Below, one piece after another: positions 5,168 through 36,127 of a DNA stretch of 64,000 bases. Position numbers and translations under genes: made by a program. This DNA comes from Dyella japonica A8. GTDB lineage: Bacteria > Pseudomonadota > Gammaproteobacteria > Xanthomonadales > Rhodanobacteraceae. The stretch spans positions 3,162,001-3,226,000 of the forward strand of contig NZ_CP008884.1 in NCBI RefSeq assembly GCF_000725385.1, given 5' to 3'. The notes beneath the pieces are model-generated. The model worked only from the letters and a program-made list of their open reading frames with translations. It was not told the DNA's origin and did no database searches. Each line of letters opens with the position of its first letter. Position 1 is the stretch's first letter.

Positions 5168-5315
5168 AAGATAATTTGGACGTGATGCCGGTAAGCGTCC
5201 TGCTTCCAAAGCCTTCTCCCTATCCAAGGATGCTCTCAAGACCTCGCTTGGTGCCACCAACCGTCAGCAACCCGCCCGCTTAGCTAGCCAGGCGGGATGC
5301 TGCTCTTGGAGTGCC

Positions 5316-5504
5316 TCAGCGCTGTGGCGGTTTGTGCTTGAGCCAGGCCAGCGCAGCGGCAACGCCTATGCCGTATGCGGGATCGGCTTTCGCGCAGTTG
5401 TCTATGTGGCGTTGTTTCACTTCATCGCGGGCGTCGCCCATTGCCCGGGCCGTGTCGTCGAACAGCAGCTGGCGTTGGGCCTGGCTCATCTGCCCGAAGG
5501 CGGC
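5316..5504 (-). pseudogene. 3' relic of a catalase gene
   Basis: The minus-strand translation [20 protein letters not shown], followed by [20 protein letters not shown], matches the C-terminal end of clade-3 monofunctional catalases (family pattern LM...Q..L..NTA.AM......RHI.NC..ADPAYG.GVA.AL). The heme-binding core and the rest of the gene are absent upstream, where the frame turns into low-complexity Arg-rich sequence. It is thus a truncated remnant about 150 bp from dif, probably left by a deletion or recombination event. A short real gene is less likely. Confidence 0.6.
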
Positions 5505-5714
5505 CTGTATTTCGTGACGCCGACGGCCCGCGCGCGACCGGCCAAAATCACCGCGCTGGCTGATTTCCTTGTGTCGAAACTCGCTGCGGCGGAATGGAAA
5601 ATGGCGCTGGACGGAAAGCCGGAACGGTCGGGCAAACCGGCGCGGAAAAAAGGTGCTGCTTCGTAGCAATGGCACGGCCTGTGACTACCCGGCGGCACGT
5701 GTCCGCCATGATTG

Positions 5715-6548
5715 TCACCGGGGCAGCGTTTCACCGTAATAGAGTCGATAGAACCATGCCCATACCGACTCGATCTGTTTCTGGATCCGCGGTGGCACCG
5801 CATGCGGCGTGGGCGCCACGATGCGGGTGGCCTGCCGGTGCGGGTACTTCATCCGATAGTGGCTGTCGCTTTCCTGCGTTCCCATCATGAGCTGGTCCGG
5901 ATCAATCTCGAACGGCGCCAGCCCCAGCCAGGCATACAGATGCGACATGCAACTCACGGGTTGCGCCACCAGATCCTCGAAACGCACGAAGTACAGGCGC
6001 TGCTTCACCGCCTCCGGCAGGTCCAGTACGGCCTGCAATGAAATAAGCGGCGCACCTATCACGCGGTCTTTCGCGAACAGGGCATCGGCGCGGCCGTAGC
6101 GGTCGTAGTCCGCCAGGTGATCGATGAAGTCCACCAGGATGGTGCGCTGATGCTGCGCTTCGATCGATCCGTAAATCTGCCCCAGTTCCCGCAGGCAGAC
6201 GATCAACTTGGCGTTCGGCTCAATATGCAGAAGCAATTCCACCGCGTGCAGCCAGGCGCGGTTCTTGTCGATCACCACCTTGTGTGCGCCACTGTCGTGA
6301 TGCCAGCCACGCAGGAATCCCTGCATGGCCGAGGCCAGGTGCGCGTAGCTCGTCTCAAACGATGAGTCCAGCTGCGACAGGAAAAACTGATCGTCGCTGA
6401 TCATCCGCCGGATGCCGAGCAGCGCATTGCACAGCGGCGAGCTGCGCCCTTCGCAATGGATGTCGGGGTGCTGCGCAAGCAGCTGGCACAGCAGTGTCGA
6501 GCCTGCGCGCGGCAGGCCGGTGACACCAACGAACGTAGACGCTGCCAC
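5715..6548 (-). CDS. Sulfotransferase, TPST/RaxST-like, in TPS operon 1
   Basis: A 277-aa PAPS-dependent sulfotransferase candidate. The 5'-phosphosulfate-binding loop GLPRAGSTLL is at residues 11-20 and is followed by CQLLAQHPDIHCEGR, as in the family of tyrosylprotein sulfotransferases and Xanthomonas RaxST. A likely 3'-phosphate-binding region is LIVCLRELGQIYGS at about residues 114-127. The later segment YFVRFEDLVAQPVSCMSHLYAWLGL is the conserved FEDL..P...L..L..WLG motif. It starts one base after the tpsB stop, so it is surely co-transcribed with tpsB and tpsA. No signal peptide is seen, so it acts in the cytoplasm. By context, a protein target, perhaps the TpsA adhesin, is plausible; small-molecule targets cannot be excluded. 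Confidence 0.8.
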   Translation of the reverse strand: MAASTFVGVTGLPRAGSTLLCQLLAQHPDIHCEGRSSPLCNALLGIRRMISDDQFFLSQLDSSFETSYAHLASAMQGFLRGWHHDSGAHKVVIDKNRAWLHAVELLLHIEPNAKLIVCLRELGQIYGSIEAQHQRTILVDFIDHLADYDRYGRADALFAKDRVIGAPLISLQAVLDLPEAVKQRLYFVRFEDLVAQPVSCMSHLYAWLGLAPFEIDPDQLMMGTQESDSHYRMKYPHRQATRIVAPTPHAVPPRIQKQIESVWAWFYRLYYGETLPR

Positions 6549-6549
6549 C

Positions 6550-8226
6550 TCAGAACCCCTTGCTCAGCTGCACCCATGCCCGCGTGGACGGGCGCTTGCC
6601 TGCCTGTTCCGGTGTGCTGCCCACCGGCTGCCCCACCTGGACTTGCGCCAACCATTGATCGGGGCCGACCCAGTTCACTCCCAGGCCCGCGCTGGCCAGC
6701 GTAGCGTGGTTGCTGCCGGTGGTTCCAGCCCATGGCTGCGGGTTGATCCACATGCCGCCTTGATCGACAAACATGCTGCCTTGCCAGGCGCCGCCCGGCA
6801 GGCCCAGGTCATGGCGCAGTTCCATCGTGGCCAGGTAGCCGGATGCGCCCGCCAGCGTACTCACTTCGTAGCCCCGCACGCTCTGCATGCCGCCCAGCAG
6901 GAATTGCTCGGAGGAATCGAGGTTGTGATGGCTGTATTGACCGCTGAGCGCCACGTACAGGCGCGTCGAGGCCGTGATCACCTGCAGGCGGCTCAGGTTG
7001 CCATCCCAATGCAGTTCGTGGCCTTGCGTGTGGGCCGTGGCCGCGTCACTGGCGTTGGCCACGGGATCGTCAAAACCCAACTGCCCGCGCGTCAGCGACA
7101 GTTGCGCCTGCGTCACCCCTCCCCCACCCCAGTCGTCGCGATGGTCGAACGTGCCGCTGGCCGTCCAGTCCCACGAGTGGCGGACATCGTGAATGCCGGT
7201 GCTGCCCGTGTCGTCCGACAGATGGCGATTGTCCACTTCCAGTCGCACGCTGAAGTTGGTGTTGGGGCTGCGCACGATGGGCTGAAACAGCCATGCGCTG
7301 GCTTCGTCGGCATGGCCACGGGCATCCAGTTCCGACAGGCCGTCACCCAGCTTGTAGGACAGCGCCGAGTACGCAAGGCCGAAGCGGGTGCCTGCGCCAT
7401 TGAACGCGAAGTCATAGGCGACGCGACCGTAGTGCATGTGGCCGTCGGAGGCCAAGACGCCTGCGCTGAGCTGATCGCCGAGGCCCGCCAGATTGTTCAC
7501 GGCCACGTTGCCGCCCAGGCGAACGCGGCCGGTGTAACGATCCCCGCCATTGTCCAGCGAGAGATTGCCCGTCACAGGTGAAAGCGGTTGCGCATCGACG
7601 GTGAGGTTGCTGGTGCCAGGCGTGTTGCCCGGGCCTAGCACCGCATGCCCCTGCACGCCCGGCAGGTCGTTCAACAACAGCAGTTGGCGATCCAGGGCGT
7701 CCTGCGTCACCAGCTGACCCGATTGCAGCGGGCTGAGTGTGTCCTTGAGCAGGGTCGTATCGACACGGCTGTGATTGCTCACCTGCACCTGGTCGTACCG
7801 TGCTTCGATGACACGCAGTTGCACCACGCCATCATTCAGCGCCTGTGCGGGCACCACCGCGCGGGACAATGGATACCCATGATTGCGGTAGTAATCGGTA
7901 ATGCGCTGCGCCAGGGCGGTGAGCGTGGCGAGCGTCTGCGTGTGGCCCTCGCCATCGGCAACCAGTGCATGCAGCGTCTGGGTATCGAACGACGTGTTGC
8001 CGGCAATGGTTATCTGCCTCACCTCGAAAGAGGTGTTGTCGGTGGCGCGGGCGGCCACGGGCGCCTGGATCTGCACGCCCGTGTCACGGCGGGGCAACGG
8101 CTGCTGCGGGGGCTGGGCCTGCTGCAATAGCTGGCCGCTGCTGGGCGGCACTTGTTGTGCAAACGCGGGAACGGCCAGCCATGCCATGGCAAGGGGCGAC
8201 AAGCGCAACGCGGTGAATCGGGTCAC
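6550..8226 (-). CDS. TpsB outer-membrane transporter (FhaC/ShlB family)
   Basis: Two-partner secretion pore that binds the TPS domain of its TpsA in the periplasm and moves it across the outer membrane. The start is uncertain. The frame runs upstream into tpsA; GTG 8226 gives VTRFTALRLSPLAMAWLAVPAFAQQ, a good signal peptide, but without a clear ribosome binding site. After a Gln/Pro-rich linker, the POTRA-2 domain begins at SFEVRQITIAGNTSFD, followed by a second POTRA-like part and a 16-strand barrel. The protein ends in Phe (VQLSKGF), the outer-membrane insertion signal. It lies 43 bp after the tpsA stop and is followed directly by a sulfotransferase. Length 558 aa is normal for the family. 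Confidence 0.88.
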   Translation of the reverse strand: MTRFTALRLSPLAMAWLAVPAFAQQVPPSSGQLLQQAQPPQQPLPRRDTGVQIQAPVAARATDNTSFEVRQITIAGNTSFDTQTLHALVADGEGHTQTLATLTALAQRITDYYRNHGYPLSRAVVPAQALNDGVVQLRVIEARYDQVQVSNHSRVDTTLLKDTLSPLQSGQLVTQDALDRQLLLLNDLPGVQGHAVLGPGNTPGTSNLTVDAQPLSPVTGNLSLDNGGDRYTGRVRLGGNVAVNNLAGLGDQLSAGVLASDGHMHYGRVAYDFAFNGAGTRFGLAYSALSYKLGDGLSELDARGHADEASAWLFQPIVRSPNTNFSVRLEVDNRHLSDDTGSTGIHDVRHSWDWTASGTFDHRDDWGGGGVTQAQLSLTRGQLGFDDPVANASDAATAHTQGHELHWDGNLSRLQVITASTRLYVALSGQYSHHNLDSSEQFLLGGMQSVRGYEVSTLAGASGYLATMELRHDLGLPGGAWQGSMFVDQGGMWINPQPWAGTTGSNHATLASAGLGVNWVGPDQWLAQVQVGQPVGSTPEQAGKRPSTRAWVQLSKGF

Positions 8227-8269
8227 AGGCAAGCATCCGGAAAACAAACAGGAGAAATGGTGTAGGTCG

Positions 8270-11200
8270 TCATGGCAGGCGCACGCCACCGCCCACCACG
8301 CGTACATCCGGCGTGTAGAGGTCCGGTGCGGCAGCCGGGGTGACGGATCGCAACGGCACGGCCTCCGAGGACGCTTCGTCCGGTGCGGCTGTCGTCGACA
8401 CCAGCAGGCTGACGGCTGCCGGCTGGCCCAGCTGCTGTTGCATGTACGCCACACCAGGCAGGGTCAAGGTGTCGCCTGGTGCCACATTGAGCGCCAGTGC
8501 GTTGCCGGCCGCCTGCACGAAGACGTAGTTGCCATCGTTCGCGGCCAGTCCGTTGCCGTTGATCGCATACTGCCCGACGGGGCTTTGCGCCGTGGCGGGC
8601 GTGGCGAAGGTCGGCGTGCCGGTGGTGGCATTGGCCAAGGTATCGCTCCCCTGGAAGCCAGTGACCGTGCCCGTCAGGGGTGGAATCGCCTGGCCGTTAT
8701 AAACCTGCATCGGCGTCGCTATATAGGTCAGCGTGGCGGGCGATATCGAGAGCGTGCCGCTGTCGTAGGTGATGGCGTAGTTGCCTGATGAAAGACCGCC
8801 GGGCGTAAGCGCGTAGTTACCCACGTTCATCGCGCCTTGCGAATTGCCGCCATAGATCAGCGCGCCACCCAGCACGGAGGCGGTCTGTCCATCGACGAAG
8901 CCGCTATAGGTCACACCATTGCCGCCGCTGTATGCCTTCGCGTTGTAGATGGTGCTGGCGTTGCTGGCCGTGACGGTCAGTGGTGCCGGAGTAATCGTGC
9001 CGATAGCCGCACTGGCTGTGCTGTTGCCCAGGATGTAGTTGCCCGCCCCGTTGCCACTGATCGCCAGCCCGCCCACCTGCACGCCGATGCCGCTGCCGGC
9101 ATTGGCCGTGGCGTAAGTGCCGGTACCGGGGTCGTTGAGGCTTACTGCATCATTGCCCACCACGCCGATCAAGGTGTAATTGCCCGACGTCAGCGTCGCC
9201 GTCGTGGTGCCGTCATAGGCCTTGCCGGCCGTCCCCGTAAGTTCGGCCGTCAACAGGGCTGGGCTCACCGTCAGCAGGCCATCGCGGTAACTGATGGTGT
9301 AATTGCCGGAGCTCAGTCCCATCGGCGTGATGGTGTAGAGCCCGGCGTTCACCGCACCTTGCGAGTTTCCGCCGTAGTTCAGCGCACCACCGAGTGCTGA
9401 TGCGCCTTCACCATTCACGAAGCCGCTATAAAGCACACCGGGGCCGCCGGTGTACGCCAGGCCGTCATAAGCTTTGCCGGCGTTGTTTGCCGTCACCAGC
9501 AGTGACGCTGGCGTGATGCTGGCGGCGCCACTCGCGCTGATGGGCAAGATGTAATTGGACAGGTTCGTGCCGCTGTCAGCGACAAAGTCGCCGCCGACGA
9601 GCGTTGCCGTCGCCGATGTGGCGCTCGCCACGTTGCTGCTGTTGTAGGTGCCGCTGGACAGCGTCACCGTTGCGCCCTGCCCGCTTACGAAACCGCGCAG
9701 CAAGTAATTGCCTGACGCAAGCGTTGCCGCCGTGGTGCCGTCATACACCTTGCTGATCGGGCCAGTAAGACTGGCTGTCAGTGCGGCGGGCGTGATCCCG
9801 GCAGCCACGCTGGCGCTGCGGGATGCCAAGGCGTAATCGCTGGCCAACGAACCGACGCTGCCGACAATGCTGCCGATACCCAGGCCCGTGACCGTGACAT
9901 CCGTGGCGTTGGCCACCTGCGAACTGTTGTAGGCCGCCCCGGTGTCGCTCAGGCTGGCGCCGGTATCACCGGAAACCAGTCCGCTGTAGCTGTAGATTGG
10001 CGTAAAACCGATCGGTGCGCTCGTCGTTCCGTCGTAGACCTTGGTAACGCCACGATTGGCCAGGCTTGCCGTCAACGTTGCCGGCGTGATGGTTGCGGCC
10101 ACATTCGCACTAGTGGAGGCCAGGCTGTAATCGCTTGCCTGCGAGCCATCGCTGCCGCTGATGCTGCCGATGCTCAATCCCGATACCGTGATGCTGGTGG
10201 CGCTGGCCACATGTGCGCTGTTGTAGGACGCCCCCGTGTCGCCCAGGGTCGCGCCGGTATCGCCGGTGGCAAAGCCGCCGTAGCTGTAGGTCGGGGCAAA
10301 ACCGGCCGGTGCAGCGGTCGTGCCGTCGTAGGTCTTGGTCACGCCGCTGTTGGTCAGGCTTGCCGTCAACGTTGCCGGCGTGATGGTTGCGGCCACATTC
10401 GCGCTGGTGGAGGCCAGCATGTAGTCGCTGGCCTGTGAACCGTTGCCGCCGGTAATGCCGTTGATGCTCAGACCCGACACCGAGACATCGGTGGCGCTGG
10501 CCACGTGCGCACTGTTGTAGGCCGCACCGGTGTCACCCAGGGTTGCACTGGTATCGCCGGTGATCAGGCCGATATAGCTGTATACCGGCATAAAGCCAGG
10601 CGGCGTGGCGGCCGTGCCGTCATAGATCTTGGTGACGCCACGGTTGGTCAGGCTCGCCGTCAGCGTTGCCGGCGTGATGCTTGCCGCTCCGTAAGCACTG
10701 GTACTGACCAAGGTGTAATCGCCAAGCACAGAGTTGTCGCTGCCGTTGCCGGTAATCGACTGCAGCGACAAGCCTCCCTGCGTGATGGTTGACGCCGAGG
10801 CGACGTGCGCCGAGTTGAACACCGGTGTTGCCGCGCTGCCTACCGTAGCGCTGTCGCCGGACACCAGGCCCGAGAAACCGTACATCGGGCTGAAGTTGAC
10901 CGGTGCTGCCGTCGTGCCGTCATAGGTTTTGGTGATGCCGGTATTGAGCAGCGATACCGTCAACGGTGCCGGCGTGATGGTCGCCGCCACGTTTGCGTTG
11001 CTGGACGTCAGGGCGTAATCGCTGGCCTGCGAGCCATGGCTCCCGGCGACGCCGCCGATGGCCAGGCCCGAAACCGTGAGGCTGGTGGCGCTGGCTACAT
11101 GCGCGCTGTCGTAGGCCGCGCCCGTATCGGTCAGGCTGGCGCCGGTGTCGCCGGCGATCAGGCCACTGACGTTGTACATGGCGGCAAAACCGGCCGGTGC

Positions 11201-14200
11201 AGCGGTCGTGCCGTCATAGGTCTTGGTCACGCCACTATTGGTCAGCGTTGCCGTCAACATGGCGGGTGTGATCGTTGCCGCCACGCTCGCGTTACTGGAT
11301 GCCAGGGTGTAATCGCTGGTTTGCGAGCCACTGGAGCCAGTGATGCTGCTGATGCTCAGGCCCGATACCGTGACGTCGGTGGCGCCTGCCACATGTGCGC
11401 TGTTGTAACCCGCACCGGTATCGGCCAGGCTGGCGCCGGTGTCGCCGCTAACCAGGCCGATGTAGTTGTATGTCGGGGTGAACCCGGCCGGCGCGGCGGT
11501 CGTGCCGTCATAAACCTTGGTCACGCCGCTATTGGCCAGTATCGCCGTCAGCATCGCGGGTGTAATGGATGCCGCTACGCTCACGCTGGTCGACACCAAG
11601 AGGTAATCGCTGACCTGCGAGCCGTTGCTGCCGACAATGCCGGTGATGCCAAGGCCCGATGCCGTGAGGTTGGTGGCACCGGCCACGTGCGCGCTGTTGT
11701 AGAGCTCGCCAGTGTCGACGAGGCTGGCGTTGGTGTCTCCGGAGGCCAGTCCGTTGAAGGTATACACCGGAGTGAAGCCGGTGGGCGCATGGGTGGTGCC
11801 GTCATAGGTCTTGGTCACGCCGCTATTGACCAGCGTCGCTATCAAAGGCGCAGGTGTGATGGTTCCGGCCACCGGGGCGATGGTGGGCAGTATCACGCTG
11901 TAGTCCGTGCTCTGGCTGCCGTTTGTGCTGCTGCCTATGTTCACCGCCAGGCTTCCGCTCGCGCTGATGCTGCTGGCGCTTGCGGCGTGACTGCTGTTGT
12001 AGGCCAGCGTCACGCCGGAGGTGTCGAGCGACAGGCTGTCACCACTGAGCGCCCCGCTGATGCTGCCGCCTACCAGGCTTGCCCCTGGCGCAAAAAGGGT
12101 GCCGTCGTAAACCTTGGTGGCCACGCCGCCAATGGTCGGGGCGGACACGGTCAGTGTTCTGGGTGTGATGCCCGCCATGCCGACACCGGTGCGGGCCGTG
12201 GTGCTCGACAGGGCGTAATCGCCGAGCACGGAATTGTCACTGCCGTTGCCGGTAACCGATACCAGCGACAGCCCACCTTGCGTGATGTCCGCTGCGGAGG
12301 CGACATGTGCCGAATTGAACACCGGCGTGGCCGAACTGCTCACCGAGGCGCTATCGCCGGAGATCAGTCCCGAGATGCTGTACGTCGGGGCGAACCCGGC
12401 GGGCGCCGTCGTCGTGCCGTCGTAGGTCTTGGTGACGTTGGTGGTGTTGGACAAGCCAATCGTCAGCTCGGCTGGCGTGATGGTTCCTGCCACTGAGGCA
12501 ATGGTCGGAGGCAGCAGGCTGTAATCCGTGCTCTGGCTGCCGTTCGTGCTGCTGAGGATGCCCAGCGTCAGGCTGCCATTGGCATGGATGCTGTTGGCGC
12601 TCGCTACGTGACTGCTGTTGTAGGCCAACGTGATGCCGCTGTCATTGAGCGACAGGCTGTCGCCGCTGAGCGCGCCACTGATGCTGCCACCGATCAGGCT
12701 TGCGCCAGGCGCCGCCGTGGTGCCGTCGTAGACCTTGGTCAGCGTGCCGCTGATGGTCGGCGCCGTGACCGTCAATACCCATGGCGTAATGTTGGCCACG
12801 CCGACACCCGTGGAAGCCGTGGTGCTTGCCAGGGTGTAATCACTGAGCACGGAGTTATCGCTGCCGTTGCCGGTGACGGACGACAGCGACAGGCCACCCT
12901 GCGTGATCGTCGTGGCCGAGGCGACGTGCGCCGAATTGAATACCGCCGCCGCCGAACTGCTCACCGAGGCGCTGTCGCCGGCCAGCAGGCCAGTGATGGT
13001 GTACGTCGGCATGAAGCCAACCGGTGCCGCTGTCGTGCCGTCGTAGGTCTTGGTGGTGTTGGCGGCATTGGACAGCGACGCCGTCAGCGTCATGGGCGTG
13101 ATAGATGCAGCGGCGCTCACGTTGCTGGACGCCAGGGCGTAGTCGCTGACCAGCGAGCCGTTGCTGCCGGCAATGCTGGCGATGCTCAGGCCCGATACCG
13201 TGACACTGGTGGCGCTGGCCACGTGTGCGCTGTTGTAAGCCACGCCGGTTTTAGCCAGCGTGACGGAATCGCCGGCGATCAGTCCACTGTAGCCATACGT
13301 CGGCGTGAAACCGGTCGGCGCATTGGTCGTGCCGTCATAGGTCTTGATCACGCCACTGTTGGTCAGCGTCGGCGTCAACGTCGCCGGATTGATGGTCAGG
13401 GTCGCGCTCGGCGTGCCAATGGTCAGGTCATAGTTGTACGAATAGGCGGACGCCAAGCTCTCGCTGTAGCTGCCGGCGTGCTGCGCCGCCGTCAGTCCGG
13501 GCGCCGTGATGTAGGAATAATTCGGCGATGCGAGCGAAGAGCTGACTGCCGCAGCAAACTGATTGGTTCCGTTATAGGTAACCGTCTGGTTGCTCGCATT
13601 GATCGTCAACGGGATCAGCAGGCTCTCGATCAGGGGCGTGGTGTAGCCAAGGTAGTTGCGCCATGTCAGACCCTGGCCACCTGTCGTGGCGATGCTCCAG
13701 CCTGAGAAGTTATTGGCCTGCTCCATCTGGGGCGTGGTCAGGCCCGATATCCCGCTAGCGCTGCCAGCGCCAGCGCCGACGCCGACGCTGGCGCCACCGG
13801 GCGCCGCGTTGTTCGTGGTATTCCAGTAGCTGGAGGTTACTGGGCCGCTCACGAGTTGCCCGATCAGGCCGCCGCGTATATCGCTCGAGTCGGGACTGGA
13901 CACGGTTCCCGTGGCATAAGTGTCGGTAATCGCGCCGGTGCTGCCGGCGGCCGCGCTGTTGCCCACCAATCCGCCGAGAAAATTCTGGTTGTTGTTGCTT
14001 CGAGGACCGAACGATACGTTGCCTGTGGCGTAAGCATTCGTGATCGTGCCGTAGTTATTGCCTACGAGCCCACCGAGATTGTCATTGGCGGGGTTGCCAC
14101 CACCATAGGAAGCGATCACCGCTCCCGTAGCGTAGGCATTGCTGATGGAGCCATAGTTGGTCCCCGCCAGCCCACCCAAGACCTCCAAGTTTGACAAACC

Positions 14201-16264
14201 GTGGACAGAACCTGTGGCGAATGCGTTGGCAATCGTGCCACCGGTCACCGTGCGGCCGCTCGCCGAATAGATTGGCGTGTCGCCAAACCCATTGCACGCG
14301 TTACATCCGACTAGCCCGCCAACCCAGTTGCGTACCCCTGAGCTTGACCCGCTGACCGATGCCGCCGAATAGTCGTTGACGACGGTGCCGTAGCTCGCCC
14401 CCACCAAGCCGCCGATGGCCGTCCCTGAGCCGCCGGCCGAAACGCTCCCCGACACCCCAACATTCCGGATCACTCCTGACGAAGCGCCGAACAGGCCGAC
14501 GCCTGCAGCCGAACCCGTCGCGTTGTAGTTGATGTAGAGCCCGCTGATCGTATGGCCCAGGCCCTCGAACACTCCCGAGAACGCCGTACCGGCGTTGCCG
14601 CCGCCGATCGGCGTGAAACCCGCGCCACTGTTCCAACTGCTCGTCACGCTTGCGTTGATGTCGGCGCCCAGCGCGTAATGGCCGGAGAGGTTGTTCTTGA
14701 TGCCTTGCAGCGTGGTCGTGCCGCCGTCCCCAGCGACGCCGAGCGTCGTGACGATCGTGTATGGGGTGCCGTTGATGGTCAGCGCCTGGCCCGCGCCGGT
14801 GAAATTCACGCGACCTGCGAACCCGCTGCCGCCCAGTCCCATGTTCAATGTACCGCCGGCCACCGCCGCGTCCGAGCCGTTGGTCGTCGCCGTATTGACG
14901 ACAAGACCCGCCGTGCCGCTTGCCGTCATCGTCGCGTTAACGTTGACGTTGTTGGCCGCTGTCAGCGTCAGCGCGTTCGCGTTCCAGCTGACGTTGTCGT
15001 TGACGTTGACGTTGCCACTGCCACCTGTCGAACTCGCACTCGATTCGATCGTGACGGAGCCACTCGTCAGCGCCCCCGACAACGCCGCGCCCGTGATGTT
15101 GCCGCCGTTCGGCGCAATCGTGAAATCATGTGGGTCGATCAGCCATGTGCCCGTCAGGCCGAGTTGAGCGGCCGTGGTGATCTTTGCGGTATCTGCAACA
15201 TTGACTTTCGCTGCGCTGGTTTCGATCTGGCCGCCATTTCCGCCATGGGGCGCACTGGCATCGAGCGTGCCGCCCACCGTGACCGCGCCGGCCTCCATGC
15301 CGCCCATCAGCATGATATGGCCGTTCTGGTTCTGTACGGTCTGCGCCTCGATGGTGCCGGTGTTGTTCACCGCACTGGCAAGCAGGCTGTCGCGCGCACC
15401 GGCCGTCATCCATACGTGGCCGCCGTTTGCTTCGATCAGCTGGCCATTCTGCGCAAGCGCGTCGAGCGTGCTCTTGTCTACCTGCACGCTCACCAGCTTG
15501 TTGCCGCCAAAGTTGAGCGTAACCGCACTGCCGCCCGCCAGCGCCACGCTGCCCAGCTGGGCATGGATCGCCCCCTGGTTGCCAACCTGGTTGCCCAACA
15601 GGGCTGCGTAACCGCCGCCGGTGACGTTGATGGTGCCCAGATTGATGACGCTGCCCTTGCCAGTGCCGCTGAAGGTCAGCGTGCTGCTGCCCAGCGCTTC
15701 GTCGCCGACATCCAGCGTGGAGGCGACCAGGCCGCCCACGTTCACCTGCGCACCCTTGCCGAACAGGATGCCGTTGGGGTTGATCAGGAACACCTGGCCG
15801 TTGGCGTTCAGGTGGCCAAGGATCTGGCTGCCACGGGTGTCGGCGATGCGGTTGACCGCAATGGCGCTGGCGCCCGGCTGCACGAAATCCACGGTGGACT
15901 GGCTGCCGATGTTGAAGGTTTGCCAGTTGAGCGAGAGGTTCTGGCTCTGCTGGGTGACCGTCAGCGTGTTGCCATGTTGCGAGAGCTGGCCGGCGCCGCT
16001 GGTGACCTGGCCGCCGGTAGGCAGTGCGTTGGCTGCGACGATGGAGGATGCAGTGGCGGCGGTTCTCTCCGCGACGACGCCGGTGGGTAACGCGGCCGCC
16101 CATGCCCATAGCGGCAAGCTCAGGGGGACACCGGCCAGCCACGCGGCACGCCGCATGCCGCCATCAGCGCTGCGACCACCTTTGGTACGGCCGCGTGCGA
16201 ATTCGGACGCAACCTGAAACACGCCCAGCCTGCGGTTCCAGACCAACCGGAAGATATGGTTCAC
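8270..16264 (-). CDS. TpsA exoprotein with ESPR, TPS domain and GLUG/YDG/MBG repeats
   Basis: A giant secreted adhesin of about 2664 aa. I choose GTG 16264, with AGGGG 8 bases upstream, because translation then begins VNHIFRLVWNRRLGVFQVAS, the extended signal peptide region (ESPR) typical of TpsA and autotransporter proteins; ATG 16300 would add 12 residues. Domains: signal peptide (about 1-60), TPS/haemagglutination domain (about 65-320, with NPNGILFGKGAQVNVGGLVAS), GLUG-type repeats (about 570-820, GGLVGNNYGTITNAYATG), about 14 YDG repeats (about 960-2350, KTYDGTTAAP...YNSAHVASAT), and MBG-like domains near the end. No C-terminal cysteine pair is present. It heads a tpsA-tpsB-sulfotransferase operon. 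Likely role: adhesion, biofilm or matrix structure. Confidence 0.9.
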   Translation of the reverse strand: MNHIFRLVWNRRLGVFQVASEFARGRTKGGRSADGGMRRAAWLAGVPLSLPLWAWAAALPTGVVAERTAATASSIVAANALPTGGQVTSGAGQLSQHGNTLTVTQQSQNLSLNWQTFNIGSQSTVDFVQPGASAIAVNRIADTRGSQILGHLNANGQVFLINPNGILFGKGAQVNVGGLVASTLDVGDEALGSSTLTFSGTGKGSVINLGTINVTGGGYAALLGNQVGNQGAIHAQLGSVALAGGSAVTLNFGGNKLVSVQVDKSTLDALAQNGQLIEANGGHVWMTAGARDSLLASAVNNTGTIEAQTVQNQNGHIMLMGGMEAGAVTVGGTLDASAPHGGNGGQIETSAAKVNVADTAKITTAAQLGLTGTWLIDPHDFTIAPNGGNITGAALSGALTSGSVTIESSASSTGGSGNVNVNDNVSWNANALTLTAANNVNVNATMTASGTAGLVVNTATTNGSDAAVAGGTLNMGLGGSGFAGRVNFTGAGQALTINGTPYTIVTTLGVAGDGGTTTLQGIKNNLSGHYALGADINASVTSSWNSGAGFTPIGGGNAGTAFSGVFEGLGHTISGLYINYNATGSAAGVGLFGASSGVIRNVGVSGSVSAGGSGTAIGGLVGASYGTVVNDYSAASVSGSSSGVRNWVGGLVGCNACNGFGDTPIYSASGRTVTGGTIANAFATGSVHGLSNLEVLGGLAGTNYGSISNAYATGAVIASYGGGNPANDNLGGLVGNNYGTITNAYATGNVSFGPRSNNNQNFLGGLVGNSAAAGSTGAITDTYATGTVSSPDSSDIRGGLIGQLVSGPVTSSYWNTTNNAAPGGASVGVGAGAGSASGISGLTTPQMEQANNFSGWSIATTGGQGLTWRNYLGYTTPLIESLLIPLTINASNQTVTYNGTNQFAAAVSSSLASPNYSYITAPGLTAAQHAGSYSESLASAYSYNYDLTIGTPSATLTINPATLTPTLTNSGVIKTYDGTTNAPTGFTPTYGYSGLIAGDSVTLAKTGVAYNSAHVASATSVTVSGLSIASIAGSNGSLVSDYALASSNVSAAASITPMTLTASLSNAANTTKTYDGTTAAPVGFMPTYTITGLLAGDSASVSSSAAAVFNSAHVASATTITQGGLSLSSVTGNGSDNSVLSDYTLASTTASTGVGVANITPWVLTVTAPTISGTLTKVYDGTTAAPGASLIGGSISGALSGDSLSLNDSGITLAYNSSHVASANSIHANGSLTLGILSSTNGSQSTDYSLLPPTIASVAGTITPAELTIGLSNTTNVTKTYDGTTTAPAGFAPTYSISGLISGDSASVSSSATPVFNSAHVASAADITQGGLSLVSVTGNGSDNSVLGDYALSSTTARTGVGMAGITPRTLTVSAPTIGGVATKVYDGTLFAPGASLVGGSISGALSGDSLSLDTSGVTLAYNSSHAASASSISASGSLAVNIGSSTNGSQSTDYSVILPTIAPVAGTITPAPLIATLVNSGVTKTYDGTTHAPTGFTPVYTFNGLASGDTNASLVDTGELYNSAHVAGATNLTASGLGITGIVGSNGSQVSDYLLVSTSVSVAASITPAMLTAILANSGVTKVYDGTTAAPAGFTPTYNYIGLVSGDTGASLADTGAGYNSAHVAGATDVTVSGLSISSITGSSGSQTSDYTLASSNASVAATITPAMLTATLTNSGVTKTYDGTTAAPAGFAAMYNVSGLIAGDTGASLTDTGAAYDSAHVASATSLTVSGLAIGGVAGSHGSQASDYALTSSNANVAATITPAPLTVSLLNTGITKTYDGTTAAPVNFSPMYGFSGLVSGDSATVGSAATPVFNSAHVASASTITQGGLSLQSITGNGSDNSVLGDYTLVSTSAYGAASITPATLTASLTNRGVTKIYDGTAATPPGFMPVYSYIGLITGDTSATLGDTGAAYNSAHVASATDVSVSGLSINGITGGNGSQASDYMLASTSANVAATITPATLTASLTNSGVTKTYDGTTAAPAGFAPTYSYGGFATGDTGATLGDTGASYNSAHVASATSITVSGLSIGSISGSDGSQASDYSLASTSANVAATITPATLTASLANRGVTKVYDGTTSAPIGFTPIYSYSGLVSGDTGASLSDTGAAYNSSQVANATDVTVTGLGIGSIVGSVGSLASDYALASRSASVAAGITPAALTASLTGPISKVYDGTTAATLASGNYLLRGFVSGQGATVTLSSGTYNSSNVASATSATATLVGGDFVADSGTNLSNYILPISASGAASITPASLLVTANNAGKAYDGLAYTGGPGVLYSGFVNGEGASALGGALNYGGNSQGAVNAGLYTITPMGLSSGNYTISYRDGLLTVSPALLTAELTGTAGKAYDGTTTATLTSGNYTLIGVVGNDAVSLNDPGTGTYATANAGSGIGVQVGGLAISGNGAGNYILGNSTASAAIGTITPAPLTVTASNASTIYNAKAYSGGNGVTYSGFVDGQTASVLGGALIYGGNSQGAMNVGNYALTPGGLSSGNYAITYDSGTLSISPATLTYIATPMQVYNGQAIPPLTGTVTGFQGSDTLANATTGTPTFATPATAQSPVGQYAINGNGLAANDGNYVFVQAAGNALALNVAPGDTLTLPGVAYMQQQLGQPAAVSLLVSTTAAPDEASSEAVPLRSVTPAAAPDLYTPDVRVVGGGVRLP
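9740..13400 (-). repeat. YDG repeat array inside tpsA1, 294-bp units in its central part
   Basis: The YDG motif (K[TV]YDGTT) recurs from about 13340 down to about 9240. In the central block the anchor GTCGTA/GTCATA occurs at about 10031, 10325, 10619, 10919, 11213 and 11507, so the DNA unit is 294 bp (98 codons) with a single 300-bp exception. Neighbouring units share long identical stretches, and units near 12.1-12.8 kb belong to a second, shorter subtype (APGASLIGGSISGALSGDSL). Such in-frame repeats can expand or contract by recombination. Confidence 0.8.
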
Positions 16265-24365: not shown

Positions 24366-25463
24366 TCAATAGAAGCCCGTGCACGCATTGGCCGCACTGC
24401 GCAGCACCAGTTGCCGCACGGCCGGATTCCACTGCAGCGACAACCCGCCCGGCAGGCCGGCGGTGATGGCGGCATCCGCCGGTTGCGCGATGGGGCTAAT
24501 CCCGGCCTGGCTGCCATCGGCGTAGGTCACCTGGGCGGACAGCGTGTAGCCAACGGGCGTTGGGCAGGCATCGGGTTCCACCTGCGCGACCTGTGTCGCG
24601 CCATAGGCCGTCAGCGCCGGCAGACTCCCGGTTTTTGCAGGCTCTCCGCCGGGCTGCGGGGAGCAGCGGGCATCCAGCGTGTAGGTCACGGCAAACCGTG
24701 GCGCGGGCGCGATCTGCAGCACACCCAGCGCCTCGGGCTGTGCTACGCAGCCCACCAGGAATGCCTTGCGCTGGCTTTTGACATGCAGCACATAGCTGCC
24801 CGGCGTGAGGCCGCTTCCAGCGGGTAGCGTCAGCTCGATGCGGCCCGGCTGGGCGTTGGTGACGGTGGGCTGTACGGCGGAAGGTGTGCCTTTTTCATCG
24901 GTGGCGGATACCTGCGGATCAGCGCATTGCGCATCGGCAAGGTTCCTGCCTGCCAGGACTAGGTGCTTATCCCCTTCCCCGCTACGCACCGCGAAGATCG
25001 CGCGTCGGTCCGGCGTCTCCACGGACTCGACCACCGGCGGCGGCGCGGACGGCGCATCCCGCGCATCCGCCAGTCGATCGACGGTCAACGCCAGTGCCTG
25101 GGCCATGACGGCTGCGTCGCCATCAAGGCAATGCGTGCAGCTATCCATGAGGGCTGCCGTGCGCATGGCCGCGGCATGTGCGCGCATGGCTTGTGCGCGA
25201 CGCGCGTCGCCCATCAGGTCCACCGGCTGCGCGGCATCCGTGCCCAGGCTTTTTTTCAGGGCTTCCTGCCATTGCGCCAGGCGCTGCGACACCGTCTTGA
25301 GTGGCTCATCGGGATGCAGCTGGATGCGCGTATCCAGCTTCTGCTGCGCATCCTTCAACTCGGCGATGACTGCACTGCCCGTCAGTCGCGGTCCGGTCTG
25401 GGCCGTGGCGGTCGTGATGACCGCCAGCGCGAACAGTGCCAGACAGAAGCTCAGGCTGCGCAT
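24366..25463 (-). CDS. Secreted protein of unknown function in TPS operon 2
   Basis: A 365-aa protein with a clear Sec signal peptide (MRSLSFCLALFALAVITTATAQ, cleavage near residue 22). An N-terminal helical part (about 25-140) includes a CTHC motif, and a C-terminal beta-rich part (about 150-360) has segments such as KHLVLAGRNLADAQC and PGSYVLHVKSQRKAFLVGC that resemble Ig-like strands. Several cysteines suggest disulfides in the periplasm. It begins 6 bp after the tpsA2 stop, so it is very likely co-transcribed with tpsB2-tpsA2. I recognise no family. By context it may be a periplasmic or surface accessory of the adhesin. Confidence 0.75.
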   Translation of the reverse strand: MRSLSFCLALFALAVITTATAQTGPRLTGSAVIAELKDAQQKLDTRIQLHPDEPLKTVSQRLAQWQEALKKSLGTDAAQPVDLMGDARRAQAMRAHAAAMRTAALMDSCTHCLDGDAAVMAQALALTVDRLADARDAPSAPPPVVESVETPDRRAIFAVRSGEGDKHLVLAGRNLADAQCADPQVSATDEKGTPSAVQPTVTNAQPGRIELTLPAGSGLTPGSYVLHVKSQRKAFLVGCVAQPEALGVLQIAPAPRFAVTYTLDARCSPQPGGEPAKTGSLPALTAYGATQVAQVEPDACPTPVGYTLSAQVTYADGSQAGISPIAQPADAAITAGLPGGLSLQWNPAVRQLVLRSAANACTGFY

Positions 25464-25469
25464 GGGTGC

Positions 25470-28400
25470 TCAATCACTCTGGCAATCGGCGCTGTCCTGC
25501 GGATCGCAGGCCTGCTGGTCGGGCGGCAGGCGGATACCGGAAGGCACGATGCCGTAGGCGCGATAGCTGGCTGTGATGATGCTGGCGTCGATATACGAAT
25601 CCAGGTGGTTGTTGCCGTTCTGCGCGTGGCCGCTCGACATGGTGATGGGCACGTTGATCGACAGCAGGCCAAAGTCGGGCAAGGCATTGCCCTCGCGATC
25701 CAGTGCATAGAAATACGCGGGTGGAAGGCCGATGGATTCGACCAGATACGGCAAGGTGCCAAATTCATAGATGGGTGCCGTCGCCAGGCCGATATGGCCA
25801 CTGGCGGCAAACGTGCCCTGGCTGTCGTAGAGCGGTGTGGTGCCGGCCTGCAGCAGGTCGCCATGCAGCACCGACAGATAGAGCGGCGACGTGCCCGCGT
25901 TCACGGTGTAGCTGCTGCCGCCCACGGAGGCGAGGGTCAGCGTCGGGCCGTTGGTGAGGCTGAACCCTGCGAGTGAGGCAAAGCCACCCAGCGTGCCGAT
26001 GTGGTTGGCGATGGGCTGGTCTTGCGTGCCCAGCGATGTCGTGCCGCCCGCGTTGCCACTCAATGCCGTGGCGATCAGGCTGCCGGAGGTATTTTCGCTG
26101 ATCGCCCCCGCCGCATTGAGCGCCACGTGCTGGCCGCTCAGCGTGCCGGCAATGTCCAGATCGCCGCTCTGCGTGGTGAGCGATACATCGCCGCTGCTGA
26201 GCAGCGGACCGGCCACGATCAACCCACCCGCATTGGTCAGGCTGAAACCGTTGGCGCTGAAACTGCCCACGTTGCGCACCTGGTTGGACTGGCCCAGGCT
26301 GGTTGCCCCCGCCGAACTGCCATCCAGCAGGGCCGCATTCAACAGGCCCGCACTCTGGTTGATGGCGCCGTGGCTGCTGAGCAGGTTCAGGCTGTTTGCT
26401 GCCGTGATGGTGTTGCCGAGGTTGAGGCCGGTGCTTCCCGATAGCGTGACGTTCGCGCCGCTCAGGTCGGCGGCCGTGCTCAGCGCGCCGCCGCCGGAGG
26501 TCAGCAGCAGATCCGCGCTGCCCGTTGTGATCGCGGTGCCCGGCAGGGTCAATGTTCCGCCAAGGGAAATCAGGCTGACGGCGCCGTTCGGGCCATTGGA
26601 CAGCGAGGCGATGCCCAGGTCGTCGGCGTTGGTGATCGCGATGCCCGTGCCGATGGCCGTCACCGGTCCATCCAGGCGGTTGCCGGTGTTGGTCAGCGCG
26701 ATGCTGCCGGTGCCGGCGTTGAAATAACTGCTGCCTCTGACGTGGAGCGGAGCGGTCTGCCCTATCGCCGGATCGTTGCTGATGATGCTCAGGCTGCCGT
26801 TGATCTGACTCGCCCCCAGCGTCAGCGGGCCGCTGTTGACGATCTGCGTGTTGCCCCCGGTCAGGCTGAGCACGCTACCAAGATGGTTCGCGGTATTCGT
26901 CAGCGTGATGGCGTTGCCACCTGCATTCAACGTGGCCGCACCCTGCACCTGCAGGGCGCCGCTCTGCGCGATGGCGGCGCCATTGGTGAGGCTGAAGTTG
27001 CCGCCGCTGCTGTAGCCGCCCAGAAGGCCAATCTGGTTGGCCTGGGTCAGCAGGGTGTCGCCCGAGGAGCCTCCCGTCAAAGTGCCTGCCGTCAGCGTGC
27101 CGGCGGTCTGGTTGACGTTGCCGGCGCCTGTATTCAGGGTCACGGCCTGGCCACTGACGGAGCCAGCCAGCGTGAGGTTGCCGCTGGTACCCAACGTCAT
27201 GTTGCCGCCACTGGTCAACGGGCCGGATACCGTCAACGCACTCGCATCGCCGAGGCTGAAATCACCGCCACTGCTGTAGCTGCCGACGTTGCCGATCGTG
27301 TTCACACCCAGCGTCAGCGAGGTGGCGCCGGAGGAATGGCCGCTCAGCGTGTTCGCCGTAAGCGTGCCGCCGGTTTGGTTCACCGCCCCGTTGGCCGCGA
27401 TGAGCGACACGTCCGTGCCACTCATCGCGCCCAGCAGTGTCAGGTCGCCACTGTGGGTGGTCAACGCCACGCTGCCGGTGCTGGTCAACGGTCCGGCGAC
27501 AGTCAGCGCGCCGGCATTGGTCAGGCTGAAGCCGTTGGCGGCGAAGCTGCCGAGCTGCGTGATCTGGTTGGCCTGGGTCAGTGCCGTGGTGCCCTGCGAG
27601 CTGCCTGTCAGCAGCGGGGCTTTCAGCGAGCCAGCTGTCTGGGTGATCGCGCCGTTGCTGCTGGCGAGATTGAGTGACTGGCTGGCCGAGACATCGTGTG
27701 CCAGCGTCATGCCCTGGCTACCCGACAGCGAGACATGGGCACCATTCAGTGCGCTTGCGGTGGCGAGCACGCCGCCAAGCGAACTAAGGGTCAGATCCGC
27801 CGCGCCGGTGTCGATCGCCTGGTTCGGCAGGTAAAGCGTGCGGCCCGCGATCAGGCGAATGGCGCCGTTCGTGCCATCGCTCAGTGCTCCCATGTGCAGA
27901 TCGCCGCTGCTGCCGATGGCGATGCCCGTGCCCGTGGCGTTGACGGTCGACCCGAAGGCATTGCCCGGGGACATCAGCGCGATCGCGCCGCTGCCGGCGT
28001 TGAAAGTGCTGGTGCCCATCACGCCCAGTGCGCCTGTCTGGGTGATGGCGGCATTGGCCGCGCTCGCACTGAGGTTGCCCGACACCGTGCTGGCGCCCAG
28101 ATCCAGCGCAACAGCATTGTTGATCTGCACATTCCCGCCGGTCAGGCTCACCGCACCCAGCAGGCGGTTGCCACTGCCCAAAGTAATGGCGCCGGCACCC
28201 GCGTTGAATGTGCTCTGCCCCGAAACGCTCAGCGCACCGGCCGTCTGCGTGATCGCCGCGTTGCTGGTCGTGGTTGCGGTCAGGTTTCCTGAAATGCTGC
28301 TGGTGTCCAGCGTCAGGACGCCAGCGTTGTTGATCAGCGTGTTTCCGCCGGTGAGGCTTACCGCACCGCCCAGCGTGTTATTGTTGCCGAGCGTAATGGC

Positions 28401-31400
28401 GTTGGTGCCCGCGTTGAGTGTGGTCTTGCCCTGCACCGCCAGCAGGCCCGACTGAGCGATCGCCGCGCCGTTGGCCAGGTTGAAATCACCGCCGCTAGAG
28501 TAGTTCCCGAGGCTGGTGATCCTGTTGGCAGCCTGGTCCAGCGTCGTACTGCCGGTGGATGCGCCGCTGAGCGTGCCGGTGACGATGCTGCCACCGGCAC
28601 CTTCGGTCACGGCGCCGTTGACGTTCAAGGTGACCGCACTGCTGCTCAATGGCCCGGTAATGGCCAGTGCCGTGCCATCGGCCAGGCTGAAGCCGTTCGC
28701 CGAGAAACCGCCAAGCTGCGCAATGGCGTTGTTGGCCTGGGTGAGCGCGGTGCTGCCGCCCGAGCTGCCGCCGAGGCTCGCCGTGGCGATGCTTCCCGAT
28801 GTCCCCTCGCTGATATTGCCTGCGGCATCAAGCGTGACCGTGCTGCCGGTGACTGCACCATTCAGCGCGAGGTCGCCGCTCTGCACGCTCAGCGCCACGC
28901 TGCTTCCGCCACTCAAGGTGCCGGCAACATTCAACGGGCCGGCATTGTTCAACGCGAAGCCGTTGGCGATGAAGCCATTGAGCTGCGTGATCTGGTTGGC
29001 CTGTGCCAGCGACGTCGCACTGGTTGACTTGCCCGTCAACGTCGCTGCGGTCAACACACCCGCCGACTGGGTGATGGCCGCGCCGTACAGCCCCAGGGCG
29101 CCGGTGGCGTTGACGTTGGCATTCAGGCCAAGTTGATTGCCGGCAGTCAGCGTGACGTTGGCGCCGGTCACCGCGCCGGCCACCGTGAGATCGCTTCCGC
29201 CCGTCGTGGTCAAGGCGATATTGCCACCGGTGCCCGTCAGCGTCCCGGAGACGGTCAGCGGGTTGGCATCGGCCAGACTGAAGCCGTTGCTCGCGTAGTT
29301 GCCCAGGGTGTTGATCGCGTTGGTGGGCTGGTTCAGCGATGTCGCGCCTGCGGACTGGCCGCTCAGCGTGTTCGCCACCAGCGTGCCCGCGGTCTGTGTG
29401 ATCGCGCCGTTGCTGCTGGTCAGCGTCAGGTTGCGTGCCGCCGTGATGTTGTTGGCGAGCGTGACGCCCTGGCTGCCCGACAGCGAGACGTTGTTGCCAG
29501 CCAGGTTTGCCGTCGTTGTCAGCGGGCCGCCAGCGGAAACCAGCGTCAGGTCCGACGTGCCGGTGTTGATCGGTGTGGATGGCAGGGACAAGGTGCCGCC
29601 GGACATCAGGTTGACCGCGCCATTCGCACCATCGGTCAAGGTGCCCATGATCAGGTTGCTCTGACTGGCCAGGGTGATGCCGGTGCCGATCGCGTTGACC
29701 TGCGTGCCGAAGCTGTTGGCCCACTGCCCCGATCCATTCGCATAGGCCAGCGTGATCGGCGCAGCGCCTGCATTGAACGTACTCGCGCCCGACACGGTGA
29801 GCGCACCGACCTGTGTGATCGCCGCGTTGGCGGTTGTCGCGGTCAGATTGCCCAGCACGTTGCTGGTGTTGAAGCTCAAGCCACGATCGTTGTTGATCTG
29901 TGTACTGCCACCGGTGATGCCCACGGCGCCGTGCAGGTCGTTGTTGAGACCCAGCGTGATCGTGTTGTTGCCGGCATTGAGCGCGGTATTGCCCTGCACC
30001 ACAAGGGCACCTGTTTGCCCGATGGCCTGCGCGTTGGTGAGACTGAAGTCGCTGCCGCTGGTGTAGCCGCTGATGGTGCCGACCTTGTTGTTGCCTTGGG
30101 TCAGCCATGTCGCACCGGCGGATTGGCCGGTCAGCGCGCCCGCGTTGAGTGCACCGCCCGTTTGTGCGACGGCGCCATTCGTGCTGACCAGGCTCAAGGT
30201 ATTGGTCGCATTGACGTTGTGGGCCAGGCTGATGCCGAGGTAGCCAGACAGCAAGACGTTGGCGCCGGACAGGTCCACTAAGGGAGCCAGCACGGCGTAC
30301 GAACTCAACGCCAGATCCGCGGTGCCGGTGTTGATCGGGGCGCCTGGCAGGCTCAGCGCGCCATGGAGCGAGACAAGACTGACCGGGTTGTTCAGGCCAG
30401 GGCTCAGGCTGGTGATGTCCAGGTTGCCGCTGTTGGTGATGGCGATGCCGCTGCCGGTCGCACTCACGCCTTGCTGCAGTTGATTGCCGTTGGTGAGGAC
30501 AATGGCGTTGCTGCCCGCATTCAGCGCGGTGGCTCCGGCGACGGTCAGCGTGCTGCCCGTGCCCTGCGCAATGGCTGCACCATTGGTCAGGGTGAAGCCG
30601 CCGCCACTGTTGTAGTTGCCAAGACTGCCGATCTGGTTGCCGGATTGGGCCAGCGTGGTATCGCCAGACGAGCCGCCCGTCAGCACGCTGGTGGAAAGCG
30701 TGCCACCCACTCCTTCACTGATGGCGCCGCCAGCATTCAACGCAACGCTGGCGCCACTCACTGCGTTGTTGATGACCAGGTTGCCGCTCTGGGTCGTCAG
30801 CGCCACGCTGGCACCGCCTGTCAGTGCGCCGGTGACCTGCAGCCCGCTCGCGTTGACCAGGCTGAAGCCGTTGCTTGTATAGGTGCCCAGCGCACCGATG
30901 ACGTTGGTGGGCTGCGTCAACGACGTAGCGCCCGTTGACTGGCCGGTCAACGTGGCGGCCTTCAGTGTGCCCGCCGACTGGGTGACGGCGGCGCCGTACA
31001 GTCCCAGGGTGCCGGTTGCCGTGACGTTGGCACCCAGGCCAATCGTGTTGCCGCCCGTCAGGCTGACATTGGCACCGCTCACCGGGCCACTCACGGACAG
31101 GTTGCCGCCCGTGCTCACCGCCAGGTTGCCACCCGTGCTGTAGTTGCCCAGCGCGCTGATCGCATTGCCGGTCTGGGTCAGCGTGGTGGGGCCGGAAGAG
31201 CCGCCGCTCAGCGTGCCCGCCGTGAGCGTGCCACCGGCCTGGGTGACGGCGCCCGCATTCGCGTTCAAGCTCACGTTGGCGCCACTCACCGCCCCGTTCA
31301 AGGTCAGGTCGCCGCTGGTGGTGGTCAGCGTCACGGCGCTGGTGCCGGACAATGTGTTCGTGACGCTCAGTGCCTGGGCATTCTTCAGGTTGAACCCGTT

Positions 31401-33965: not shown

Positions 33966-33977
33966 GGTCGTCTCCCC

Positions 33978-35684: not shown

Positions 35685-35797
35685 GTTCGATTCCCCTCGA
35701 AAAAGACGCCTCGATCCCCCGATCGACGCCGCGATGACCGGCTCCCCCGGCCCATCGAATGCCGAACGATACATCATGCCGAGGCGGCCGAACCTGG

Positions 35798-36127
35798 TCA
35801 TGCGGCCAGCAGCCAATAGGCCAGCAGGAGGCACAGCACACCACAGGTCGCCCAGGCCCAGGTGCGTCCACTCATCAACCAGGGACGCGGGGGAAACATC
35901 GACGGCAACACATCCGCCTGCCCGGCGCCGCCGTAAGGCGAAGGCGGATCTTGCGGCTCCGGTACACGCATCGTGGTGCGGCGCGTGATGACACCATCGC
36001 CCCCATGCAGCGTACCCAGCAGCCGGCGGCGCCGCGCGCGGTATTCCTCGCGGTTGAGCCGGCCCAGCCGATGCGCTTCGTCCAGCGCACGCAGTCCTTC
36101 GTTGATGCCCTGCTCGCGCTCGCTCAT
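35798..36127 (-). CDS. Small tail-anchored protein with SHOCT-like segment
   Basis: A 109-aa protein. Its N-terminal part INEGLRALDEAHRLGRLNREEYRARRRRLLGTL looks like a SHOCT-type short helical domain. A Pro-rich middle follows, and the C-terminus is a membrane helix (TWAWATCGVLCLLLAYWLLAA) that reaches the end, so it is probably tail-anchored in the inner membrane with the N-terminus in the cytoplasm. The ATG at 36127 overlaps the ppkA stop in an ATGA, which shows tight coupling; an upstream ATG at 36214 inside ppkA is rejected. It may be a target or adaptor of the T6SS kinase, but that is inference. Confidence 0.75.
   Translation of the reverse strand: MSEREQGINEGLRALDEAHRLGRLNREEYRARRRRLLGTLHGGDGVITRRTTMRVPEPQDPPSPYGGAGQADVLPSMFPPRPWLMSGRTWAWATCGVLCLLLAYWLLAA

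Follow-up and report, generated by a model that had tools for sequence, protein, structure and literature searches.

Why does an operon for a giant secreted adhesin of Dyella japonica A8 end with a sulfotransferase gene, and what could the enzyme sulfate? The question arises in the 64,000-nucleotide stretch analyzed here (the window; positions 3,162,001 to 3,226,000 of contig NZ_CP008884.1), where tpsA, tpsB and a sulfotransferase gene (ST, for gene and enzyme alike) lie head to tail in this order on the minus strand, with ST last. An earlier note on this DNA had described this trio with a 1-bp gap, and this is what we found: a single base (6549) separates the TGA of tpsB from the GTG start of ST, which is preceded by AAGGGG. 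The association of ST with two-partner secretion (TPS) genes is beyond local chance and reaches far past the genus. Our best explanation, held with moderate confidence, is that ST would be a cytoplasmic third partner of the TPS system, similar to HMW1C, that sulfates TpsA before Sec export. The features concerned are the following:

5715..6548, minus strand: ST, a Sulfotransfer_3 protein of 277 amino acids with a GTG start (Pfam E-value 1.1e-20; AlphaFold2 (AF2) model)
6550..8226, minus strand: tpsB, outer-membrane transporter with POTRA_2 and ShlB barrel (Pfam; presumed GTG start at 8226)
8270..16264, minus strand: tpsA, giant exoprotein of 2,664 amino acids with a GTG start (open reading frame and Pfam)
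16121..16261, minus strand: ESPR, the extended signal peptide of TpsA (Pfam PF13018, E-value 1.9e-13)
15284..16030, minus strand: TPS secretion domain of TpsA (Pfam PF05860, E-value 7.2e-38)
13628..14767, minus strand: GLUG-repeat block of TpsA, amino acids 500-879, with six GG[LIFA][VAI]G copies (Pfam and pattern)
9215..13339, minus strand: TpsA span bounded by the outermost of its 15 YDG tyrosines, containing 12 (S/G/T)DY tyrosines (motif count)
8273..8326, minus strand: TpsA C-terminal tail PDLYTPDVRVVGGGVRLP, conserved in ST-linked TpsAs of the window's lineage (tail comparison)

The first two genes form a two-partner secretion (type Vb) pair: TpsA has a signal peptide and a TPS domain and adjoins a ShlB-type TpsB with POTRA. 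The operon thus has the parts of a filamentous-haemagglutinin-type TPS system (ESPR, TPS domain, POTRA_2 plus ShlB transporter), from which it differs by its extra ST gene. Pfam finds in TpsA the ESPR, the TPS domain, 13 YDG stretches, 3 MBG_2 and one GLUG stretch; the GLUG block (14767..13628) was absent from the earlier description. ST and TpsA probably share one transcript. A pattern scan of positions 5200-6700 found no promoter-like site and 4 terminator-like sites, none of them downstream of ST on its own strand.

A predicted sulfotransferase with a TPST-like fold

ST matches Sulfotransfer_3 at 75.3 bits against a Pfam cut-off of 27 and is predicted to be a sulfotransferase dependent on 3'-phosphoadenosine 5'-phosphosulfate (PAPS). 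Among 47 ST sequences, residues G11-R14, G16-T18, R120 and S128 were invariant, and the PAPS-binding positions R14 and S128 are intact in the window ST; H27, between the two PAPS motifs, was nearly invariant and is a candidate only for a role in catalysis. Judged by conservation, D94, H133, D228, and H237 are candidates for the catalytic base. Two APS-kinase matches (PAPS synthesis) were found in the own genome. The AF2 model of ST (pLDDT 93.6) has the tyrosylprotein sulfotransferases TPST1 and TPST2 as its nearest solved folds, and the solved structures closest by sequence are tyrosylprotein sulfotransferases (TPSTs) too. The GLPRAGSTLL loop had been read as being of the TPST/RaxST type; the loop is present, but we take it to be the PAPS-binding loop of sulfotransferases in general, and it does not by itself mark a TPST or RaxST. 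Judged from the sequence, this loop begins at residue 11 and there is therefore no room for a signal peptide ahead of it; with no export signal recognized, ST is predicted to be cytosolic.

ST differs from TPST1 and TPST2 in being bacterial, in having no predicted N-terminal membrane segment, and in the GEET loop, which is replaced by (E)GxSSP. The GEET glutamate, which we take to be the catalytic residue of TPSTs, aligns with Ser36 of ST, local gap placement being uncertain in this sequence alignment. In addition, R102 and R106 of TPST1, which bind acidic substrate residues (PMC5562738), are not conserved and align with P38 and A42 (numbering matched by spacing). ST is TPST-like by fold but not by the GEET glutamate and R102/R106, and these substitutions count against the explanation given above.

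A precedent in bacteria is the tyrosine sulfation of RaxX by RaxST of Xanthomonas, an enzyme that needs an Arg in one PAPS motif and a Ser in the other (PMC6637879). Like RaxST, ST is a bacterial sulfotransferase encoded beside a secreted protein, and its R14 and S128 match the Arg and Ser required by that description. For the catalytic His or Glu expected between the two motifs of a RaxST-type enzyme, the nearly invariant H27 is no more than a candidate. The neighbors are unlike, the RaxX precursor from the raxX-raxSTAB cluster having 60 residues and the TPS exoprotein 2,664.

Two-partner secretion genes beside the sulfotransferase

The neighborhoods of ST relatives were analyzed in the best 80 of 173 confirmed GTDB loci. 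These comprised a TPS clade of 39 loci from several phyla (L035-L072 and the partial L090 at 69%; at least 59% identity to ST), a sister set of 18 (L073-L089 and L091), 21 controls with other sulfotransferases (L093, L094, and L096-L114), and 2 partial genes that were omitted (L092 and L095). We scanned 3.5 kb around ST using our own profiles for the TPS domain, TpsB, YDG, GLUG, MBG, a C-terminal Ig-like domain, and a YadA-like end. A TPS-type gene or a typical TpsA repeat segment was detected within this distance in 29 of the 39 clade loci and in 1 of the 21 control loci. When a TPS domain or TpsB within the locus was required, 15/39 remained (L035, L038, L040, L042-L046, L049, L050, L052, L055, L056, L058, and L065). 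Genome searches, which covered the clade loci and not the controls, raised this number to 17/39 by adding Oryzomonas L061 (3,611-amino-acid frame) and Chlorobiaceae L069 (5,030-amino-acid frame), both TpsAs ending beside ST. Fisher p values against the controls were 2e-7 for 29/39, 0.005 for 15/39, and 0.002 for 17/39, and serve as a guide only because the loci are not independent. ST was codirectional with its neighbor and on its 3' side in 24 of the 29 linked loci (all except L036, L039, L046, L055, and L056), and gene order varied, A-B-ST and B-A-ST both being found. TPS genes were present somewhere in the genome for 38 of the 39 clade loci. The sole linked control is from Sphaerotilus mobilis (L104:8-5006), where a 30%-identical ST lies behind an ALTTAQ-repeat exoprotein and TpsB; its overlapping frames escaped the neighbor scan, so that it was counted from a separate inspection of the locus. 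This is apparently an independent case of ST-TPS linkage in another ST lineage.

In an ST tree (42 rows), all 15 TPS-linked rows (14 of the 29 loci and the window) fell within one clade of 21 with support 100/100, which spans alpha-, beta-, and gammaproteobacteria, Geobacteraceae, and Chlorobiaceae. On a tree of the TPS domain (56 rows) the linkage label needed 11 changes, at least 8 of them on well supported branches; shuffled labels needed 16 changes on average, and 8 of 500 shuffles were as low as 11. With the linked STs in one clade and these changes in the TPS-domain tree, the enzyme therefore seems to keep to TPS systems but to switch its TpsA partner. A functional link between ST and the adhesin is, in our judgment, very likely.

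Adhesin or another substrate

In the explanation that we favor, ST would act in the cytoplasm on unfolded TpsA, with PAPS as the sulfate donor, and the sulfated TpsA would be exported via Sec and then carried to the surface by TpsB. TpsA itself is the presumed substrate. ST relatives often adjoin giant secreted proteins in several bacterial groups and ST may therefore well sulfate them; given a functional link, we consider a protein substrate rather likely. Because the fold is TPST-like, the acceptor would be a tyrosine. There is a precedent in HMW1C of the Haemophilus influenzae HMW1ABC system, whose gene follows tpsB and which modifies its TpsA in the cytoplasm (PMC3983070). The window operon likewise has a modifying-enzyme gene downstream of tpsB, whose cytosolic product would be able to act before export; it differs in encoding a sulfotransferase and not a glycosyltransferase, and TpsA modification is here proposed from the genes.

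Our literature search, which had partial full-text coverage and included few subscription papers, found nothing on the sulfation of a TPS exoprotein or on a sulfotransferase in a tps operon. We know of no description of adhesin sulfation in bacteria, and to our knowledge the known bacterial protein tyrosine sulfation is that of RaxX by RaxST. What would be new is a third-partner TPS system whose modifying enzyme is a sulfotransferase. If this holds, the ST clade riding with TPS adhesins would be a common bacterial route for sulfate on surface proteins, a second chemistry would be added to the idea of an HMW1C-type third TPS partner, and the clade would be a possible source of soluble sulfotransferases for non-acidic sites.

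A wider version, which we put forward tentatively, is an adhesin-sulfation system across several phyla, in which the TPS-dedicated ST clade, joined by sister enzymes acting on trimeric autotransporters and further passengers, would work in the cytoplasm, probably on non-acidic repeat tyrosines, before surface display. At some loci of at most 51% identity, ST adjoins a trimeric autotransporter of the YadA type (L084, with Pfam matches to head and stalk), Ig-like proteins (L077 and L078), or a beta-propeller protein (L080). The neighbors in L088 and L089 are tentatively read as YadA-type from their C-termini: a profile built from L088 finds L089, the YadA_anchor match of L089 is below threshold (15.5 bits, cut-off 22.7), and L088 has no YadA_anchor match. 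In L120 (ST at 56% identity), PATR and Chlam_PMP-repeat proteins follow the gene. TPS genes were found in 7 of 15 sister-set genomes.

These neighborhoods can also be explained if the substrate of ST is not the adhesin but a glycan or lipid of the surface, or a small molecule, that the adhesin binds or is displayed with. A shared non-protein substrate would account for relatives that stand beside unrelated passengers (L084, L120, L077, L078, and L080), and in L086 (6700-9833) ST comes after two TPR proteins that match glycosyltransferase-9, the first scoring above the Pfam cut-off and the next one below it. Moreover, most characterized bacterial sulfotransferases use small molecules, lipids, or glycans, and ST lacks two of the arginines with which TPST1 meets acidic substrates. 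However, among the neighbors examined the recurrent ones are an exoprotein and TpsB, no recurring glycan, lipid, or polyketide gene was seen (most neighbors being without a family search), and the nearest solved folds are protein sulfotransferases. We consider this alternative unlikely, though likelier than the other alternatives.

Another alternative is that ST, as a mobile accessory gene, occurs in the same islands as tps genes without any functional tie to them. ST has 1,885 matching proteins at an E-value of at most 1e-10, the top 120 of them all at least 74% identical, and its presence in the family is patchy. An intact ST at 86% identity or more is carried by 7 of 233 family genomes, the own genome included, two have one at 56-59%, and three have partial or broken copies (G077, G089 at a contig end, and G070 with a stop), so that 12/233 bear ST or a remnant; TPS matches occur in 124/233. 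The own genome (one contig, 4.83 Mb) has one ST of this kind and four weak matches in frames of 626-754 amino acids. In G077 (L121), remnants of ST and tpsB were found with no TpsA match within the 15.5 kb examined. Contig G240:C158 carries both an ST fragment of 83% identity and a TpsA whose open frame spans 5,899 amino acids.

Broken copies and unlinked loci also speak for such island sharing, and the observations that follow weigh against our preferred explanation. In G070 (L123) ST is broken while tpsA-tpsB persist and two tandem TpsA genes remain. Ten of the 39 clade loci are unlinked (L041, L047, L051, L053, L057, L062, L063, L067, L070, and L071); two of these have less than 700 nt of upstream sequence, and TPS genes occur elsewhere in 9 of the 10 genomes. 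Twelve of the 29 links are based solely on YDG, GLUG, MBG, or Ig-like segments, typical of TpsAs though not confined to them, and many sister-clade STs have ordinary or unannotated neighbors (e.g., L081 and L085). Yet linkage is kept across phyla, predominantly with ST codirectional at the 3' side, the spacing in the window is 1 nt, and other STs are rarely linked. The conservation of the trio, raised as a check in the earlier note, was borne out by all six intact relatives examined, in which tpsA-tpsB-ST is present (L035, from Dyella acidisoli, and L115-L119). We regard mere sharing of islands as improbable.

More distant ST relatives (29-33% identity) were seen on the viral contigs L178, L179, L180, and L182, directly after long, structural-looking genes. 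PHROG profiles of tail proteins (tape measure, tail assembly or fiber, sheath) match nearby in L178, L179, and L182, and none does in L180. These may represent a parallel, virion-protein-linked sulfotransferase. On viral contig L176 (2066-2887), an ST of 55% identity is surrounded by small genes, with no frame above 453 amino acids seen within 5.5 kb.

Tyrosines that could accept sulfate

To compare exoproteins, we used 19 ST-linked TpsAs and 36 unlinked ones from the own genome and from relatives with ST or a remnant. Forty regions were taken as unlinked TpsA, of which 6 without a profile row are uncounted (L128, L129, L146, L150, L153, and L156); also excluded from the 19/36 counts were the 83-amino-acid match of L042, the short duplicates L124-L126, and one truncated L142 frame. 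L123 was scored as linked despite its broken ST, and for 7 of the 36 unlinked TpsAs the genome has a broken, partial, or contig-end ST (G070, G077, and G089). The unlinked label is mostly safe, because ST is single-copy in 33 of the 37 genomes checked.

GLUG repeats (at least 4 copies, a threshold chosen after the counts were seen) were present in 19/19 linked and 13/36 unlinked TpsAs. Among the family genomes, GLUG was detected in 22/233 (Pfam, E 1e-4), including all 7 intact-ST genomes and G089; this search misses G070, whose TpsA has six copies by pattern. In one Gallionella genome, the linked L050 and the unlinked L154 share 90% identity in their first 467 residues and 67% in their last 364, and a GLUG array and YDG occur in the middle of L050 only. 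A scan of tyrosine contexts in 12 of 23 linked representatives (L141 and L142 being excluded from the controls) ranked the GLUG context S-N-(S/A)-Y-A-T-G first, though by a weak margin: it scored 0.73, the top score among 20 label shuffles was 0.67, and a few further short contexts likewise occurred in 12/12. N.YAT occurred in 12/12 linked representatives, in 6/34 unlinked TpsAs, and in 7 of 8 selected GLUG-TpsAs whose genomes lack this ST. Because they are common to the linked TpsAs, the GLUG repeats are the likeliest candidate for the acceptor region, ahead of the YDG repeats.

This assignment has to be set against several results. ST is absent from 14 of the 22 GLUG genomes of the family, and the GLUG-ST link was not significant after tree correction (on average 4 pairs for, 0 against, and 4 ties; median p 0.125). 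The GLUG tyrosine was not enriched with ST: tyrosine occupied its position in 120/239 linked repeats, 48/89 unlinked ones, and 43/58 repeats of eight GLUG-TpsAs from ST-free genomes. No tyrosine context combined presence in every linked TpsA with absence from the others. Tyrosines in acidic clusters (at least 3 D/E within 5) were also rejected as a mark: 1 of the 19 linked TpsAs has them and 18 lack them.

Further candidate acceptors in the window's lineage are the (S/G/T)DY tyrosines inside the YDG repeats and the C-terminal DLYxPD. Most YDG repeats of this lineage contain a second tyrosine that is preceded by Asp, and (S/G/T/A)DY numbers 9-21 per TpsA in nine linked TpsAs of the lineage; ten unlinked TpsAs of the family that are rich in YDG have 1-8. 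As a general mark it fails: the close paralogues L141 and L142, although unlinked, have 8 and 15 copies, and the ten linked TpsAs from other lineages have 0-4. DLYxPD is found in 9/9 linked TpsAs of the lineage and fails likewise, being present in the unlinked L130, L141, and L142 and absent from the C-terminal tails compared of other linked lineages. The tail motif V.xGG(V/I)(R/K)LP (e.g., window 8273-8326) is common to many TpsA C-termini, linked or unlinked.

The earlier note had proposed the YDG tyrosines as acceptors, on the basis of about 14 K[TV]YDGT motifs with Tyr beside Asp. The motif count of 14 holds for K.YDGT, with 12 K[TV]YDGT among a total of 15 YDG, and exceeds chance (at most 1 K.YDGT in any of 2,000 shuffled TpsA proteins). 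In 12 of the 14 K.YDGT, however, the tyrosine has T or V at -1, Lys at -2, and Asp at +1 only, and the context is therefore not acidic. An acidic residue at +1 helps human TPSTs, but the main TPST determinant is the residue at -1 (PMC5562738). YDG number was rejected as a mark of ST linkage. The ST-linked TpsA of L055 has 0 YDG, as have the linked GLUG giants L061, L064, and L069 within the 3,303-3,305 residues examined, and YDG-rich TpsAs without ST are common: the own genome, in a third TPS gene, encodes a 3,516-amino-acid TpsA frame with 32 Pfam YDG stretches that adjoins TpsB and has no ST beside it (L127, G000:C1:1231500-1251400), and nine more unlinked TpsAs of relatives have 11-26 YDG; the genome has an intact ST elsewhere for six of these nine and a partial or broken ST for the other three. 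Together with the missing R102/R106 equivalents, this makes sulfation mainly at YDG tyrosines very improbable. What stands of the earlier overall reading is the trio, its far-reaching TPS linkage, the TPST-like fold, the lack of an export signal, and the two APS-kinase matches; the YDG acceptor does not.

The window contains a second TPS locus (24366-35834, minus strand) without a sulfotransferase. Its TPS domain scored 91 bits in the genome search, yet was absent from protein scans. The genes of this locus are:

24366..25463, minus strand: 365-amino-acid protein with no Pfam match
25470..33965, minus strand: TpsA of 2,831 amino acids with DUF5649 repeats
33978..35834, minus strand: TpsB
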